Assembly (NCBI GenBank): GCA_016777125.1
Contig: JADHSC010000006.1
Span: 1-64,000, forward strand
From: Candidatus Poseidoniaceae archaeon
GTDB taxonomy: Archaea > Thermoplasmatota > Poseidoniia > Poseidoniales > Poseidoniaceae
Reading direction: 5' to 3'
DNA: 64,000 bases
Shown one piece after another: positions 34,674-42,765 of this stretch (its first letter is position 1; the number at the start of each line of letters is the position of its first letter). Under the pieces are notes generated by a model. The model searched no databases. It worked only from the letters and a program-made list of their open reading frames with translations, and had not been told where the DNA came from. The position numbers and the translations under genes were made by a program.

Positions 34674-37136
34674 ATGAGTACTCCAAGACTACCTGAGAAG
34701 CGATGGTCAATCGACCTTGAGAAGAAAATACAAGAGGAACATTACGCTGATTCTGAATCATATCAACAACGGTATGGATTCAAACCTTCAAGCGGAAAAC
34801 CTCTGTTTGTCGTTGACACCCCACCCCCCTATCCTTCAGGCACCTGGCACATTGGAGCAGTTGCTCAATATTCAATGATAGATGTCATTGCTCGATCACA
34901 ACGATTACTTGGAAAGGAAGTCTATTTCCCGTGGGGCGTTGACAGAAACGGTATTAATATCGAATTCACAGTCGAAAAGAACACTAAAAGGAAGATGAAA
35001 ACCTATGACCGAGAGGAATTCCTGACATTGTGCAGAGAGACAATTGAAACATTCACACAAGCCATGAGAAAGACTGCAGCCCGTGTTGGATTATCATGTG
35101 ATTTCGCTGCCGAATATTTGACAGACGCACCAGATTATCGTGCGGTCACTCAATCAATTTTCATCGACTTATTCAAGAAAGGAGATATCATTGAGGACCT
35201 CCGTCCAAACATCTACGATCCTGTTGAAGGGACGACCATTGCAGATGCTGAAGTTGAACGGATATCAAGAAATACCAAACTTATCGATGTAAAATGGCAA
35301 ACGGATTCTGGTGAGGAACTGATCATATCAACTACACGACCAGAGATGATTTGTGCTTGTGGCGTTGTTGTCGTCCATCCTGATGATAAACGATATCAAC
35401 ACCTTGTTGGAAAGAAAGCCATCTTGCCGATGCCAGTAAGTGGAAGAGAAACTTCTGTCGAAATTCAAACCCACCCATCGGTCAAATCCGAATTCGGAAG
35501 CGGTATTTTGATGGTCTGTTCCTTTGGTGATCAAAACGATGTTGCCGTATTTAGAGAACTTGGATTGACACCATATCAAGCCATCGACCTCGATGGTTGC
35601 ATGACGGATATCTCCGCAGACCTATCGGGAATGAGTGTCATTGAGGCAAGAATAAAGGCTACTGAAATGCTTGAAGAATCTGGAAAGATTTCACAGATTG
35701 AAGAACGTTCACAAGAGATTCCAGTTTCTGAACGGGGAAAGAATCCTGTTGAAATTATCCTTCTAAAGGAATGGTATGTACGACAAACCCATATTCAAGA
35801 CAGAATGCGAGAACATATTGATGAAATCGAGTTCCATCCCCCAAGAAACCGACAATTTTTACTTGACTGGATGGACAATATCAGTATCGATTGGCCAATA
35901 TCAAGACGTCGATGGTATCATACTGAGATTCCAATTTGGTATTCGCAAGATGAACAATTCATTGTGGTCCCACCATCGGGTCATTATGTCCAGCCATGGA
36001 AGGAACAACCTCCTTTCGATTCTCGAGTTCTTAATCGTGAATCAAGAGAAGACATAGGTTCATTTAGTGAAATTAAAGATTCACTTGGTGAAATTCGTGG
36101 TGAAGAAAAAGTATTCGATACGTGGATGGATTCATCAAATTCAAATCTTTTCGTAAGTGGATATTTGAATCATCCAGAAGTGTTTGAAAAAGCATTCCCA
36201 ACCGCATTGAGGCCACAAGGAAAAGAGATAGTTCGCACGTGGTTGTACTATACACTCCTGAAGTCAACCCTCTTACTTGACAAGCCTGGTTTCCAACATG
36301 TATGGATTGATGGCCTTGGAATGGATCCTTGGGGGAGAAAAATGTCAAAGTCTCTAGGCAATGGCATTGATGCGGATAGCGTTCTCGAATGTGGCGCAGG
36401 TGGGCGGACAGGATCTTGGAAGGTCAAAGGACCGAGCGGTTCAGTTAGTCTCAAAGCAAATAAAATCGGAAGTGAATGTTTCCGATTATGGAAGGCTTGT
36501 GAAGCCCAAGTAGGGGATGATTTCCATATTAATCCTGAAGAAATAGAAGCGAAATACTTCGGAGTACTTACTAAATTATTCAATGTTGCTCGATTTGCAA
36601 GCCAATTCGATATGCCCGAAATTGAACCTACAACGGCATTCCCGGTTGAGGATAGATGGATTCGTTCAGAATTTTCTTCAACCATGAACACTGTCGAATC
36701 ATCTTGGAATGACCTTGACATTTACACAGCAACACAAGCGCTCAAGACCTTTGGAACTGGCATCTTGCCATCGCATTGGCTTGAAATGGCAAAAACTCGA
36801 CTCTATGATGGCGATATGCATGCAGCTTGGACAATTCATTCAATCTTGAAAGATTTCCTTGCAGCTTTTAGTCCAGTATGTCCTTTCTTTTGCCACCATA
36901 TATCGATGACGCTCTATGGAGAAAGTTCAGTGGATGTTGACCAATTCCCAAATCAAGGATCTGTCGATGAGCAACTCAACAACCTAACTCCAGAAGTCGA
37001 AGCCTTCAACAGCGAAGTTTGGAAGACAAAGAAGGAACAAGGTCTATCGCTTAATGCTGAAATAGAAGGAGTCACGATTCCAGATTCGCTTGAAGAATTC
37101 AATGGCACCCTCACACGAATGCACAAGTTACTCTGA
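34674..37136 (+). CDS. valS: Valyl-tRNA synthetase
   Basis: An 820-residue class Ia synthetase that charges tRNA-Val. The HIGH-region is PPPYPSGTWHIGA, where archaeal ValRS usually has HxGN; here Ala takes that place. The editing domain has LIISTTRPEMICACGVVVVHP. SIDWPISRRRWYHTEIPIWY and LRPQGKEIVRTWLYYTLL are ValRS-type, and WGRKMSKSLGN is the KMSKS loop. The protein lies at the short end of the family and carries no long C-terminal coiled coil. Start ATG at 34674 is preceded by a GC-rich spacer with two GGCCGGT copies. The end overlaps the convergent dinB gene by 9 bases. Confidence 0.93.
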   Translation: MSTPRLPEKRWSIDLEKKIQEEHYADSESYQQRYGFKPSSGKPLFVVDTPPPYPSGTWHIGAVAQYSMIDVIARSQRLLGKEVYFPWGVDRNGINIEFTVEKNTKRKMKTYDREEFLTLCRETIETFTQAMRKTAARVGLSCDFAAEYLTDAPDYRAVTQSIFIDLFKKGDIIEDLRPNIYDPVEGTTIADAEVERISRNTKLIDVKWQTDSGEELIISTTRPEMICACGVVVVHPDDKRYQHLVGKKAILPMPVSGRETSVEIQTHPSVKSEFGSGILMVCSFGDQNDVAVFRELGLTPYQAIDLDGCMTDISADLSGMSVIEARIKATEMLEESGKISQIEERSQEIPVSERGKNPVEIILLKEWYVRQTHIQDRMREHIDEIEFHPPRNRQFLLDWMDNISIDWPISRRRWYHTEIPIWYSQDEQFIVVPPSGHYVQPWKEQPPFDSRVLNRESREDIGSFSEIKDSLGEIRGEEKVFDTWMDSSNSNLFVSGYLNHPEVFEKAFPTALRPQGKEIVRTWLYYTLLKSTLLLDKPGFQHVWIDGLGMDPWGRKMSKSLGNGIDADSVLECGAGGRTGSWKVKGPSGSVSLKANKIGSECFRLWKACEAQVGDDFHINPEEIEAKYFGVLTKLFNVARFASQFDMPEIEPTTAFPVEDRWIRSEFSSTMNTVESSWNDLDIYTATQALKTFGTGILPSHWLEMAKTRLYDGDMHAAWTIHSILKDFLAAFSPVCPFFCHHISMTLYGESSVDVDQFPNQGSVDEQLNNLTPEVEAFNSEVWKTKKEQGLSLNAEIEGVTIPDSLEEFNGTLTRMHKLL

Positions 37137-38276
37137 TTCATCAATGCCATCTAATGTTGTTTGGCGATGGTCGATTACTTCCAGTTGTCCTAGACGAAAT
37201 CCAACGAGTCGTATGTTTTGTTCCTGATTCACATTTTGTGCAAAAAGCATTCGAACTTGACGGAGGAATACATCAGTATCATCCATAGCAACTGGAATAG
37301 AACGTCCATGAGTGTGCGTTTCAAAACCAGTATATCGTAACTTAACCTCTGCCAGCCTACCTGCAATACCCTCTTCTCTGGCCTTTGCCATGACTCTTAC
37401 AGTTAGTTTTTCAAGCACTTCTAGAACAACTTCATGATTCGATTGGTCAACAGGGAACGTTCGTTCTTTTCCAATCGAACGTCGAGATCGGATTGGACTG
37501 ACCTCATTTGAGGTGGTCCCATCCACAACACGTAGTAGCCATGAGGCAAATCGTTCAGAGGTCATTCTTGCTAACGCCAGTTCGCCTAACTCCGAGGCTT
37601 CATCTACGGTTGAGATTCCCCATTCCGCCAATCTGTTCGCTGTTTTAGGACCAATACCTGGCACTTCCCGTACGGAACGTTGTTGAAAGAATGAATGAAT
37701 TTCATCAGGTAATACTCGGTGAATCCCATTTGGTTTATTCACTTCAGAAGACATTTTAGCAACAACTCTCGTTGAACCGATCCCAAAAGAAGCAGTCAAG
37801 CCAACTGAATCTGTAATTTCGCTCTTTATTCGTCGAGCGAGTCCTAGCGCTTCATCCCAATCTCCGTTCGTAAACTCAGTTATGTCGAGATATGCTTCAT
37901 CGATACTCGCCTGTTCAAATTTATCAGCATATTTTCGTAAGATCTTCATGACACGTCGAGACGCCATTGAATACAGGGAACGAGTGCCTCGAATATATCG
38001 TCCCGGGCCGTATGGACTTCCTGGGCAACGTCGCCATGCTTCAGTGATGGGCATTGCAGAACGTACACCGTAGGTCCTAGCAGCATAATTACAGGTCGAT
38101 ACGATACCTCTACCACGGCCCTGTTGAGGGTCTGAACCGATGATTAGTGGCTCATCCTCTGGAAAACCATGATGAAGCATCTCGACCGATGCAAAAAAGG
38201 CATCGAGATCACAATGAATTAGGATACGAGGTTCGCTCACAATGCAAGATAACTGCCGAAGGTGTTTGAAATTCAT
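37128..38276 (-). CDS. dinB: Y-family DNA polymerase (DinB/Pol IV)
   Basis: A 382-residue translesion DNA polymerase. The first catalytic aspartate lies in LIHCDLDAFFASVEM (D23), and QASIDEAYLDIT carries the second Asp-Glu pair. GIVSTCNYAARTYGVRSAMP is the conserved steric-gate/finger region. The helix-hairpin-helix thumb is REVPGIGPKTANRLAEWG, and the little-finger domain follows with VLEKLTVRVMAKAREEG. No clear PIP-box is seen; the C-terminus ends TTLDGIDESE, and TTLDGI could be tested as a PCNA-binding segment. GTG 38240 is an alternative start. It is divergent from the RecA-like gene (73 bases) and part of the polymerase cluster. Confidence 0.94.
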   Translation of the reverse strand: MNFKHLRQLSCIVSEPRILIHCDLDAFFASVEMLHHGFPEDEPLIIGSDPQQGRGRGIVSTCNYAARTYGVRSAMPITEAWRRCPGSPYGPGRYIRGTRSLYSMASRRVMKILRKYADKFEQASIDEAYLDITEFTNGDWDEALGLARRIKSEITDSVGLTASFGIGSTRVVAKMSSEVNKPNGIHRVLPDEIHSFFQQRSVREVPGIGPKTANRLAEWGISTVDEASELGELALARMTSERFASWLLRVVDGTTSNEVSPIRSRRSIGKERTFPVDQSNHEVVLEVLEKLTVRVMAKAREEGIAGRLAEVKLRYTGFETHTHGRSIPVAMDDTDVFLRQVRMLFAQNVNQEQNIRLVGFRLGQLEVIDHRQTTLDGIDESE

Positions 38277-38349
38277 CCTTCACTTTCATAGTACTCCCTG
38301 CGAAACATAACCCTACTGCCTTCGCCGGACAACAATACTTGGTGATGGA

Positions 38350-39087
38350 ATGACGGATATTGAAGCAATAAAGAAAACCCCAATTTTTCCTGAACTTCTC
38401 ATCATGAAAAGGGGCATAACATGGCTCGAAGGGCCAGGCTATTTTGGTAAGGACATGCGTTTCCTCGCTCGGGAAACAGCTGCGGTTTTACTCAGTGAAA
38501 GTCACACAGTCCATTGGATTGATGGAGTAAATCGATTCGATCCAAGTACTTTTTTTGAATCATTAAGAAATCGAAACTGTGGTCTTGAAGAAGGTTTACG
38601 ACGACTCTACATTGGACGAGGATTCACGCTTCATCAATTGCATGCATTGATTCTTCGTGCACATCAAGAGACCATGCTAACAAAGGCTTCTTTGGTCGTT
38701 GTTGATGGATTACTTGCCATGTTTCTCGATGATCAAATCCGGAGGTATGAGGGACGTACAATACTTCGTCATTGTTTGCATTCATTACAGAAATTATCCA
38801 AACATTGCGCAGTCATTATTACCGATGGACACGCAAAAAGTCGACTTCATCAACAACTTAAGCAGACGGTAAAGATACACGCAGACAGGCATTTACATGG
38901 CTCTTGGCAAACAGCAAGAAAGAACATATTGATTCTCAGAAGTACCACCGATTCACAGACATTGCTACGACTTCTTCCTAAAACGAAAGATGAATCTCAA
39001 TCGAGACTTGAGGGCTTTACATCCATTGGTCGAGTCGCACAACACCAACTTCTGTCAATTGATGCTCAGTCCACCCAAAGGGAGTGA
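38350..39087 (+). CDS. RecA-superfamily ATPase paralogue, possible ImuA analogue
   Basis: A 245-residue protein shaped like a RecA/RadA core. ITWLEGPGYFGKDMRFLARE holds a Walker A-like loop, GPGYFGKD (G28-D35), in which the usual Thr/Ser after GK is Asp, so ATP binding may be weakened. LVVVDGLLAMF (Asp119) is the Walker B strand, preceded by GFTLHQLHALIL, which recalls the RadA segment before Walker B. AVIITDGHAKSR resembles the RecA/RadA strand that ends at the polar sensor. No N-terminal helix-hairpin-helix is present. Lying between a Y-family and an atypical B-family polymerase, it may serve as accessory ATPase. The stop lies 71 bases inside the convergent polB 3' end. Confidence 0.75.
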   Translation: MTDIEAIKKTPIFPELLIMKRGITWLEGPGYFGKDMRFLARETAAVLLSESHTVHWIDGVNRFDPSTFFESLRNRNCGLEEGLRRLYIGRGFTLHQLHALILRAHQETMLTKASLVVVDGLLAMFLDDQIRRYEGRTILRHCLHSLQKLSKHCAVIITDGHAKSRLHQQLKQTVKIHADRHLHGSWQTARKNILILRSTTDSQTLLRLLPKTKDESQSRLEGFTSIGRVAQHQLLSIDAQSTQRE

Positions 39088-41431
39088 GTATTGCCCAGAT
39101 CGCACGAATGGCTTGTTGCCGATAATATGCTAAATCGATATTTTGAACTGTTTTATGTAAGTCAGGACACTCTTCGGAAAGAAGAACTCGAAAGAGTGGA
39201 TTCCTGGCATCTTTCTCTCGAACAAGAAATCGTGCTTTCGAACCGACGGTGAGAGGAAATCCATGTGCTTGATGCCTTTGGAAAGCAAGCATTGCTAGAG
39301 ATTGTACTGAACCTTGAGTCGGTTCTCTTGAAATGCGTTGAGCAATCAGAAGGTCACCAATTGTAATCATTCCATTCTCGAGTTTCTCAAGTTCATCAAG
39401 TAGTAGGTTCTGAACCATTTTCTGAACAGAATAGGATGGAAGACCGTTGCTTAGATCAGTGGTTTTTGAGAGAATCTGCAAAGCTTGTTGCTGGAGATTA
39501 CGAATCCATTGGCAGGTTGAATGTTGACGCAATTCAAGACCTCTAATCTTTAGACCATCCTTCCCATATGCCCAATATTTGGTTAGAGAACCTCCTGAAT
39601 GGACTCGACTCGGTAAAAAGGCAATACAATCGTATGTCGCCTCATATTCGAGAGGAATTCCGGTGAATGTCTGCACTTCTTGGGCTAAAGCCAAAGCATC
39701 TTCGTGTTGTTGTTCGTATGTCCTTCCCTGTACATCACGAACCCAAATTGAGTCAACGATGGCATGAAGAACCTCCCAACCTGACTGTTGAGCATGTTCA
39801 ATCGTCTGAAGAAGAAGTTCTCTCGCCCAGGCACAGATTGCTTCGTGTGCTTCAATACGTCCAAACCGAGCGTTACGATAACCAGTGTAGCCAAAGCAAG
39901 TGACAAGAAGCCATTTCAAAGCATTCTGTTGACGATCTGCTCGGTCTTTTTTGTTCTTGACTTGTTTCTTCAATTGTTTTCTTCGCTCAATGAGTGGAGC
40001 TACCACACGACCAAGGAAACCATGAATCCGGCCACAGGTATGCGTTGAAAGGCCTGGGACTTGGAAAGCTGTCGACGAATAACGTGGAAAGGCAAGGCTT
40101 GCAGACTGCCATTGCCGTTCATGCAATTGGAATTTCTTTTTTGCTGATTCGGGATGCAGTGGCAATGGAGCGGTATTGCTGGCTGGCTGGCAACAACTGC
40201 AGTTCAGAGTTTCCGGCGAGATATTTCGTGTTGCGATAATACTTGGAAAGAGACTGGCAAAATCCAGTTCGATGACGTTTGAATAAACTCCAGGTTTGCT
40301 ATCGAGGTAAAGTCCGCCCCGATCTGATTGAAGAAGATCCCAAGCACTTTTGGTATCTTCTGGCCTCGTTTTCTTCCATGGGACAAGAACATCATCTTCC
40401 ATTGCTACTCGATTCTGAATGGCACTGATTACCGACCCAGGAGATTTACGAGCTGCATCGCTTATTCGTGTAGCGGAAACTACCGCTAATTCATACAGAC
40501 CTGAAAGACCCCCTTCTTTGAACATAAAACTAGATGAAAAATCGATATGAATTCGACCTTCAAATGAAAATTGGGGGTCGCTACGAAGAACTTTCCCATA
40601 GGAATGAACTGTTCTTGCGACACCGATTTGGCGAAGAACGGAAGAATTGCGACCAAGCTTCAAGGTGTGCCCACTCCTCTTTGCATGCGTCATTAACGCT
40701 GGAAGAGCAAGCGTATTACCATCCCGTGTAAAGATGACATCAGGGTCAACTTCTCTCAGACTCTGCCCAAGTGTCATAGCAAATGATGGATGGTGGGCAG
40801 GAATCATGAAACTCCTGCCAAACCTCTTCCCTTCTGAATCACATTCCTCTATTCGAGCAGAAGATATCTCAGTAGAACTATCTGCAAATCCCTTGTTCTT
40901 ACAGAATTCAACTTCAAGTCGACAACATCTCAATGAACGTTGATTCACTTCCTGTTCCATTGCAATAAGTTGTTGATTTTCAATCATAACCGAAGAACCA
41001 ATGGACAAACGCTTCGAAGTGAGATAGGATTGTTCTGGTTGCAAGTCCACCGAATAGAGGGTGAAGCGGACATGCTTCCCGCGTTCCTCGATATGTTGAG
41101 CAAGTTGTTTGAGTAATGCATGACCTTTTACTTCCACTGTGAGCACACGTGTTTTATCGACGAAACCGAGTTCCAATCGTTTGTATTCAAATAAATGACT
41201 TAATATCCCAAATTTGATCTTAATCTCTGGTTGCTGCAACCATTCAATCAGCATCTCAAGATCTGAAACTAAACCAGAAACGTGCAATGAGGGATTCCAT
41301 TGTTCACGGTATGAAAACACTGGCCCTTCTTTTGGAACAATCCATACGATCATATCTTTTCTTTCCGAACAAAGATGGGCATCAAGAATCCATCCGTTAT
41401 CTCCTTCAGCCTCCATTGAGTACACCTGCAT
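39017..41431 (-). CDS. B-family DNA polymerase, PolB2-like, exonuclease motifs lost
   Basis: An 804-residue family B polymerase. Motif A, VIELDFASLFPSII, is intact (D390). Motif B is ALKWLLVTCFGYTGYRNARF, with the usual NSxYG changed to VTCFG. Motif C, normally YGDTDS, is HAIVDS: only the second Asp remains (D560). The 3'-5' exonuclease motifs are not recognisable: the DIE site reads LEVEF, NxxxFD reads RDGNTLAL. This pattern resembles archaeal PolB2 enzymes. The start overlaps the upstream small gene by 26 bases, suggesting coupling. It probably acts in translesion synthesis, not bulk replication, but this is inference. ATG 41416 is an alternative start. Confidence 0.88.
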   Translation of the reverse strand: MQVYSMEAEGDNGWILDAHLCSERKDMIVWIVPKEGPVFSYREQWNPSLHVSGLVSDLEMLIEWLQQPEIKIKFGILSHLFEYKRLELGFVDKTRVLTVEVKGHALLKQLAQHIEERGKHVRFTLYSVDLQPEQSYLTSKRLSIGSSVMIENQQLIAMEQEVNQRSLRCCRLEVEFCKNKGFADSSTEISSARIEECDSEGKRFGRSFMIPAHHPSFAMTLGQSLREVDPDVIFTRDGNTLALPALMTHAKRSGHTLKLGRNSSVLRQIGVARTVHSYGKVLRSDPQFSFEGRIHIDFSSSFMFKEGGLSGLYELAVVSATRISDAARKSPGSVISAIQNRVAMEDDVLVPWKKTRPEDTKSAWDLLQSDRGGLYLDSKPGVYSNVIELDFASLFPSIIATRNISPETLNCSCCQPASNTAPLPLHPESAKKKFQLHERQWQSASLAFPRYSSTAFQVPGLSTHTCGRIHGFLGRVVAPLIERRKQLKKQVKNKKDRADRQQNALKWLLVTCFGYTGYRNARFGRIEAHEAICAWARELLLQTIEHAQQSGWEVLHAIVDSIWVRDVQGRTYEQQHEDALALAQEVQTFTGIPLEYEATYDCIAFLPSRVHSGGSLTKYWAYGKDGLKIRGLELRQHSTCQWIRNLQQQALQILSKTTDLSNGLPSYSVQKMVQNLLLDELEKLENGMITIGDLLIAQRISREPTQGSVQSLAMLAFQRHQAHGFPLTVGSKARFLVREKDARNPLFRVLLSEECPDLHKTVQNIDLAYYRQQAIRAIWAILTPFGWTEHQLTEVGVVRLDQWM

Positions 41432-41693
41432 CTGTTAATTGACGTTCAAGTGCTTCAAGCCGCCCCTCCAAGACTCGAATTCGTTGATGAGCACCTAAGA
41501 GCATGGAAAGGAGCATTGGTTTCCATTCTTCTTGTGCGGGAAGCATTCCACCTGCTGCTCGACGAGTGCGAACATCATGTAGCATCATATCGAAGTTGCA
41601 ACAATCATCCAATGAAAGGGCTCTTCGATAAGGCACAAGACGTTCTATTTCCTGTTCGACACGACCTCTCCAAGTTGGTACTGTACGACCCAT
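41406..41693 (-). CDS. Small MGRTVPT-type coiled-coil protein coupled to polB
   Basis: A 95-residue protein that starts MGRTVPTWRGRVEQEIER and ends in a predicted coiled coil, HQRIRVLEGRLEALERQL. The middle, PYRRALSLDDCCNFDMMLHD, has an YRRAL/FD pattern that I recall from small archaeal proteins beside PolB2-type polymerases, though I cannot verify this. The stop overlaps the polB start by 26 bases, which implies translational coupling. It follows serA by 64 bases on the same strand. It could be a polymerase-binding or DNA-binding accessory subunit. Confidence 0.75.
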   Translation of the reverse strand: MGRTVPTWRGRVEQEIERLVPYRRALSLDDCCNFDMMLHDVRTRRAAGGMLPAQEEWKPMLLSMLLGAHQRIRVLEGRLEALERQLTDAGVLNGG

Positions 41694-41757
41694 GTCTTCT
41701 GAACTGCATCTCTAAGGCAAGACTTGTGCTCACACCACTTGCAAAGTGAAAATGGAA

Positions 41758-42765
41758 CTAAGAAAGCGATGAGCGATTCACTGTTGTTTCTGGCAATGAA
41801 CCACTCAAAGCGACGAGGACCGCATCTGCAATATCTAATCCAACACGTCGTTGAGCCTCTATGGTTGCAGCCCCAATGTGAGGTGTACCGTGGAAATGTG
41901 GATGTTGTAGGAGAAGAGAAGATGCGTCAACAGGTTCGTTTTCAAACACGTCGAGGGCGAGTGATGAAAGTTGTCCATTTTCAAGTGCCTCCAAGGCAGC
42001 TGTTTCATCAATAATCCCGCCCCTTGCACAATTAACGATGTGATTCCCACAAGGCAAATTATTCGGATCCTTGCCAGGCATCATTGAAATTCGTTCAGAA
42101 TCAACAAGATGGTGAGTTTCATCAGTGAGGTTACAATGAATCGAAATGTGCGTGCAACGCTTGAACAAACCATCCACCGTTTTATGCATTGATACGTCAA
42201 ATTTCTTGGCTATTGAACCTGGGAGATATGGGTCATAGGAATGAACCTCCATACCAAATGCTTGAGCGACTCGAGCAACACCTTGCGCAATCCGACCGAA
42301 TCCAATCAATCCGAGTCGCTTGCCATAAAGTTCTGTCCCAGTCAACTCTTTTTTCGCCCATGTACCTGAACGAAGAGTACGGTCTGCAGTAGGAATGTAG
42401 CGAAGAGAACCAAGCAAATGAGCAACTGTCAATTCAACCACACTTTGTGTACTTGCCCTAGGTGCATTAACAACAGGAATTCCAAGTTTGGAAGCAGCAT
42501 CGAGATCGATGTTATCGACGCCAACACCAGCTCTTGCGACTACTTTGAGGCCGGGCGTACTTGCTTCTAGAATTTCCTTTGTTATTTTCGTAGCACTACG
42601 AACAATAACTGCATCAAAATCAGCCAATGCTCCATCAAGTAAATCTGGGAGTTCAATGAATTGACGTACAACTTCACAATCAGCTTGTTCTAATCGTTTA
42701 ATTGCTTCATCAGCCATACCATCAGTAACTGCAATCCTACGCATGAATTGGTCACTCTTCGACAC
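41758..42765 (-). CDS. serA: D-3-phosphoglycerate dehydrogenase-like (SerA, short form)
   Basis: A 335-residue D-isomer 2-hydroxyacid dehydrogenase that starts serine synthesis from 3-phosphoglycerate. The NAD site is LGLIGFGRIAQGVARVAQAF with YDPY marking strand 2. The catalytic residues are in NCARGGIIDE (Arg), DVFENEP (Glu) and THIGAAT-type PHIGAATIEAQ (His). GLKVVARAGVGVDNIDLDAA and VVNAPRASTQSVVELTVAHLL are typical of SerA. The C-terminal ACT regulatory domain of long SerA is absent, so serine feedback would need another route. ATG 42744 is an alternative start. GlyA is at 25257-26549. Confidence 0.92.
   Translation of the reverse strand: MSKSDQFMRRIAVTDGMADEAIKRLEQADCEVVRQFIELPDLLDGALADFDAVIVRSATKITKEILEASTPGLKVVARAGVGVDNIDLDAASKLGIPVVNAPRASTQSVVELTVAHLLGSLRYIPTADRTLRSGTWAKKELTGTELYGKRLGLIGFGRIAQGVARVAQAFGMEVHSYDPYLPGSIAKKFDVSMHKTVDGLFKRCTHISIHCNLTDETHHLVDSERISMMPGKDPNNLPCGNHIVNCARGGIIDETAALEALENGQLSSLALDVFENEPVDASSLLLQHPHFHGTPHIGAATIEAQRRVGLDIADAVLVALSGSLPETTVNRSSLS

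Follow-up and report, generated by a model that had tools for sequence, protein, structure and literature searches.

The closest described relatives of the polymerase considered here are the Dpo2 enzymes of Sulfolobales. As reported in PMC8764526, purified Dpo2 from Sulfolobus islandicus and S. solfataricus incorporates nucleotides robustly, shows no detectable 3′–5′ exonuclease activity, misincorporates at 1e-4 to 1e-5 when the template is undamaged, and strongly extends mispaired and lesion-bearing termini. The same paper and PMC7390963 describe a distributive polymerase with good base selection on undamaged DNA, the gene for which is damage-inducible and causes targeted mutagenesis in S. 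islandicus. In the account of the archaeal PolB2 mutasome by Timinskas et al. 2025 (PMC11791011), loss of the first motif C aspartate is the rule in the PolB2 family (S. islandicus reads IID), the exonuclease is dead, and the polymerase is accompanied by PPB2, a small subunit characterized by an MGRT-type N-terminal motif, and by an ATPase-dead RadA homolog, iRadA. According to the model in that paper, a strand-helix preceding the D(K/R) motif of PolB2 docks iRadA, and the MGRT arm of PPB2 is inserted near the PolB2 active site. As the paper also points out, the outline resembles that of the bacterial Pol V mutasome (UmuD′2C–RecA), in which a translesion polymerase likewise acts with a small subunit and a RecA-family partner, although the catalytic subunit of Pol V is a Y-family enzyme unrelated to the polymerase described below. 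A further relative is the PolB2 operon of haloarchaeal plasmids (Haloprofundus and Halorubrum; L191 and L192), which encodes PolB2, with an IVDS motif C, together with PPB2 and iRadA.

The present study concerns a stretch of 64,000 nt from a Poseidoniales (Marine Group II) archaeon, hereafter the window, in which a minus-strand open reading frame of 804 aa (39017..41431) encodes a B-family polymerase; its extent, strand, and length were given correctly in the initial annotation. The protein matches PF00136 over residues 361–783 (E 1.3e-28), its best PDB matches are archaeal B-family polymerases (E 2e-33), its predicted structure matches the PolB fold, and its closest NCBIfam models are type B DNA polymerases, with scores under the model cut-offs. 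In the predicted structure the palm and fingers are of low confidence, with pLDDT <50 at residues 355–471 and 514–534. The same genome holds a second PolB (contig C32, L001/L194), with intact exonuclease and polymerase motifs (SYDLETS, YNIDNFDF, YCVRDAA, DFKSMYPS, NSFYG, YSDTDS) and a C-terminal QTSLFSF; we refer to this replicative enzyme as PolB3, a label of our own assignment. Both are B-family polymerases, but the window protein lacks a YxDTDS motif and an intact exonuclease site, and its C-terminal PCNA box is degenerate (RLDQWM). Alignment of the two upholds the motif readings of the initial annotation: motif A is intact, with D390 (40262..40264, minus strand) in ELDFASLFPSII, and motif C reads HAIVDS (residues 556–561; 39749..39766, minus strand), in which I558 aligns with the first aspartate of YSDTDS and D560 is retained. 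The exonuclease motifs are degenerate as it had claimed, with an Exo II remnant, RDGNTLAL (40703..40726, minus strand), that aligns to YNIDNFDF and has lost the catalytic aspartate, an unconserved Exo I, and nothing aligned to Exo III; no intact exonuclease residues were found elsewhere. Motif B, which the annotation had passed over, is altered as well, reading KWLLVTCFG (39890..39916, minus strand) where the replicative enzyme has KILMNSFYG.

Tree support was 99 for the 10 Poseidoniales PolB2 rows, 95 for the 20 rows from other Thermoplasmatota, and 100 for the three haloarchaeal rows, and 19 of the 20 PolB3 rows grouped with a support of 100. The PolB2 rows, among them the window protein, are thus set apart from the PolB3 rows, although the remaining PolB3 sequence (L210) forms a long branch and the support for all 20 together is 43; Sulfolobus Dpo2 sequences were left out of the alignments and the tree. 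Members of the PolB2 family as a rule have a one-aspartate motif C, which explains the apparent anomaly: judged by its sequence, the window polymerase is an archaeal PolB2 of the Dpo2 type, an ordinary member of a family in which such an altered active site is normal. This family identity, like the two partner genes described below, had escaped the initial annotation. A block running from VLVPWKK to DRGG ranks among the most conserved parts of PolB2, with DRGG retained in 102/104 PolB2 rows. From its position before motif A, we infer that DRGG corresponds to the published D(K/R) motif, and VLVPWKKTRPEDTKSAWDLLQSDRGG (40313..40390, minus strand), a strand-helix and then this motif, is a candidate iRadA-docking element by analogy with the model in PMC11791011.

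PolB2 is accompanied by both partners of the published mutasome. Directly upstream, and overlapping the PolB2 start by 26 nt, lies a minus-strand gene for a 95-aa protein (41406..41693) of the arCOG07300-type small helical subunit, PPB2; its N-terminus reads MGRTVPTWR, and M1, G2, R3, and R9 are invariant in the 21 aligned homologs. This protein had no match in Pfam, in NCBIfam, or, up to E 10, in the PDB. On the plus strand, convergent to PolB2, a 245-aa protein (38350..39087) matches the RadA profile (E 5.7e-9), and its predicted fold (mean pLDDT 80) gives TM scores of 0.60–0.71, by either length, among the RadA ATPase-domain matches listed. It is without the RadA N-terminal domain and the ATPase residues: Walker A has degenerated to GPGYFGKD (38431..38454, plus strand), and HWIDG (38512..38526, plus strand) stands where RadA has the catalytic glutamate of IDTE, a residue found at that column in 0/97 rows. 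Profile, motifs, and predicted fold together identify this protein as iRadA. Since a GxxxxGK[ST] string still occurs somewhere in 26 of the 97 rows, ATPase decay appears to be uneven, a point of difference from the mutasome as described in PMC11791011. Near its C-terminus, iRadA carries a PCNA-box-like motif, QSRLEGF (38998..39018, plus strand). Across 75 loci, a clamp motif of the form Q..[LIM]..[FWY] was found in PolB2 only in 23, in iRadA only in 18, in both in 2, and in neither in 32, with 3 further loci having an incomplete PolB2 C-terminus; the shuffled-tail control gave 0.067 for iRadA and 0.017 for PolB2. This distribution agrees with the statement in PMC11791011 that either protein but rarely both carries the motif.

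The window gene very probably encodes the PolB2 (Dpo2-type) translesion polymerase of this archaeon, acting in a PolB2 mutasome. Homology, motif conservation, the partner genes, and purifying selection were computed here and form the basis of this proposal. Its mechanistic part (polymerase activity, the extender role, complex formation, clamp binding, and damage induction) is carried over from published relatives. PolB2, a PPB2 oligomer, and ATPase-dead iRadA would assemble into the mutasome, D390 and D560 would carry the chemistry, the first motif C position being normally hydrophobic in this family, and decay of the exonuclease domain would abolish proofreading and so permit extension of mispaired or lesion-bearing primer ends, with the PCNA-box-like motif of iRadA tethering the complex to the clamp. 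Translesion extension is favored as the mechanism because published Dpo2 is active, exonuclease-free, and able to extend such termini, and family membership suggests the same role for the window enzyme. The suggestion in the initial annotation of a specialized enzyme that may still polymerize without proofreading fits this picture, whereas its term "error-prone" needs qualifying in view of the misincorporation range reported for Dpo2.

PolB2 was first proposed to be a catalytically dead scaffold, regulating replication or recombination and here doing so with iRadA, an early interpretation of the family found in PMC4104785 and one with which the altered motifs B and C and the dead exonuclease would be compatible. 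However, the motif A aspartate, the second motif C aspartate, and the KxRG motif are kept in all readable rows (at motif A, 79/80 Poseidoniales rows read ELD[FY] and the remaining one has X at two positions), and the purified Dpo2 of PMC8764526, whose motif C is of this type, is active, so that we regard a dead scaffold as unlikely. Two other polymerases mentioned in PMC4104785, that of casposons and the inactive half of Pol epsilon, were considered but dropped given the PPB2 and iRadA partners. One scan of viral contigs with the PolB2 protein yielded 14 pattern matches, none of which was confirmed as a relative.

Where the Poseidoniales locus departs from the described systems is in its arrangement. 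In the window the 3′ ends of PolB2 and iRadA overlap in antisense by 71 nt (39017..39087). In a set of 28 relatives, with open reading frame ends as called by our script, the two coding ends overlap in 26; in one of the others they lie 13 nt apart (L047) and in the last PolB2 is split (L060). Two loci (L077 and L123, around 8.4–10.7 kb) have about 2.2 kb with other open reading frames between PolB2 and a convergent iRadA. Among the 80 named Poseidoniales loci, PPB2 lies on the PolB2 strand in 77/77 loci that have it, and iRadA lies on the opposite strand, convergent to PPB2–PolB2, in 78/78. By contrast, the haloarchaeal plasmid genes, 29–32% identical among the matches listed, are codirectional in the order iRadA–PPB2–PolB2, and of the 23 loci examined outside Poseidoniales, iRadA was found in 18 and is codirectional in all 18. 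A single codirectional three-gene operon is typical of the family, without defining it, and is absent from the window; according to PMC11791011, the three genes share orientation "in most cases," and the main text of that paper contains none of the words "convergent," "opposite," and "Poseidon." PolB2 itself is of a known kind, and what appears unusual here is the flipped iRadA and the promoter box that the two separate units, PPB2–PolB2 and iRadA, often have in common.

The cassette sits between SerA and a gene for the Y-family polymerase DinB (37128..38276, minus strand; PF00817, E 3.1e-38), which is divergent from iRadA. This proximity could suggest an error-prone polymerase working with DinB in place of a PPB2–iRadA mutasome, and DinB does adjoin iRadA in 44 of the 80 named loci. 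Yet no DinB was found alongside iRadA in 33 loci, some of them on short contigs, and SerA and DinB are direct neighbors without the cassette in six relatives (G135, G138, G121, G104, G024, and G043). DinB is therefore an inconstant neighbor, as against PPB2 in 77/80 loci and iRadA in 78/80; we rejected it as a dedicated constant partner and consider such a pairing very improbable. Since SerA–DinB neighbors exist without the cassette, the PolB2, PPB2, and iRadA genes are apparently gained or lost as a group.

Conservation among relatives bears on whether motif C is real. In the Poseidoniales set (80 named loci kept from 391 confirmed, with motif C uncovered in one row), the motif reads H[AG]IVD[SC] in 79/79 readable homologs, and in the distant loci, 20 from other Thermoplasmatota and three on haloarchaeal plasmids, it reads HGI[VI]D[SA] in 23/23. 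It is readable in 27 of the 28 relatives of the second set, all of them agreeing and one reading HAIVDA; the two sets share organisms, and their counts were kept separate and never summed. Because of this conservation, the frameshift or sequencing error that the initial annotation had left open at motif C is excluded. Comparison of PolB2 with four congeners gave dN/dS values of 0.105, 0.083, 0.069, and 0.09, indicating strong purifying selection on the gene. The idea that motif C reflects a frameshift, a sequencing error, or gene decay, prompted by the oddity of the motif itself and by isolated damaged relatives (G007 with an in-frame stop and L136 split), is to all intents refuted by I[VI]D in 102/102 readable PolB2 rows and dN/dS near 0.1. 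Among the loci collected, one contig titled Rhodobiaceae bacterium (L073) bears a Poseidoniales PolB2 locus and is most likely a mislabelled metagenome bin.

A promoter box of tandem ANTTTC-like hexamers precedes PPB2 in the window (41742..41759, minus strand); its best 12-mer, ATTTTCACTTTG, lies within one mismatch of the tandem pattern, and a weak copy with two mismatches, TCCTTCACTTTC (38276..38287, plus strand), lies between DinB and iRadA. In 110-nt regions before PPB2, ANTTTC ANTTTC occurs exactly in 21/76 loci and with ≤1 mismatch in 54/76, against shuffle expectations of 0.02 and 1.24 and opposite-strand counts of 0 and 1; in these 54 loci the box lies 57–76 nt from the PPB2 start (median 63). 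Before iRadA it occurs in 10/33 loci exactly and 20/33 with ≤1 mismatch where DinB was not found alongside, and in 1/44 and 10/44 where DinB is alongside; the iRadA–DinB regions extend 45 nt into the open reading frame, and at least two of these ten (L061 and L076) lie in the coding part. When the 80 loci were scanned on both strands, 37 exact sites were found, 33 of them inside the PPB2 and iRadA upstream regions, which amount to 23.6 of 1879 kb. These counts come from related loci and are hence nonindependent, but two separate promoters have the box in common. A reversed-pattern control is invalid for the upstream-region test, the repeat being nearly symmetric on reversal, and shuffles and the opposite strand were substituted; the same near-symmetry weakens the reversed controls of the genome counts that follow. 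As a general promoter element the box lacks support in its own genome, where 10 YTTCACTTTSMA sites stand against 9 for the reversed control. Eight of the ten sites were read: the PPB2 site (L216) is intergenic, and the other seven lie within open reading frames. Counted across the family, the 13-mer CANTTTCACTTTC has 157 sites in 78 genomes and its reversed control 68, an approximately twofold excess, and many of the sites are inside genes. Outside Poseidoniales the box shows no enrichment, with ≤1 mismatch in 1 of 23 loci.

Sites at other genes were also seen. A protein of ~170–197 aa with weak beta-propeller-like matches (L258:2345-2938; L305, in this genome at C42 ~3.6 kb; L271, L273, L274, L318, and L320) often has a tandem box ~54–69 nt before its start, and among 16 readable orthologs the box is exact in 4 and within one mismatch in 8. 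A conserved 58-aa open reading frame just after the clamp-loader gene rfcS (L255:2691-2867, in this genome at C42 ~51.7 kb; L257, L260, and L263) has CACTTTCACTTTCAC ~63 nt before its start. At radA, the tandem box was seen upstream in exact form only in two genera of the family (L276, L286, L297, and L298). Constant membership of RadA in a regulon is unsupported: of 24 readable upstream regions, 4 have the box exactly and 6 within one mismatch, and the opposite strand gives 9/24, so that this test is not clean.

The S. islandicus protein Orc1-2 is described in PMC9738581 as an activator of Dpo2 that binds ANTTTC at damage-responsive promoters, and the genome studied here has two Orc1/Cdc6 genes above the family cut-off. 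The Poseidoniales box is reminiscent of this Sulfolobus element, although the hexamer is short and the 23 non-Poseidoniales loci lack enrichment for the box. We tentatively raise the possibility that in Poseidoniales the iRadA–PPB2–PolB2 operon was split into two convergent units that remain linked by a shared tandem-box operator ~63 nt before the start codon, that this box might be the euryarchaeal counterpart of the Orc1-2-bound Sulfolobales element, and that it may mark a small damage regulon, comprising also the ~190-aa propeller-like protein, the 58-aa protein after rfcS, and in some genera radA, which would amount to an SOS-like circuit of Marine Group II archaea. Searches of openly licensed papers in PMC listed no report of a Poseidoniales PolB2 or of a Marine Group II damage box.

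Many Marine Group II archaea have their home in sunlit surface water. The analyses described here show that the predicted PolB2 mutasome of these archaea is complete, and that a one-aspartate motif C, such as its polymerase has, is normal for an active translesion family and no mark of a broken enzyme. Furthermore, the tandem box provides a concrete candidate operator for a DNA-damage response in Marine Group II.
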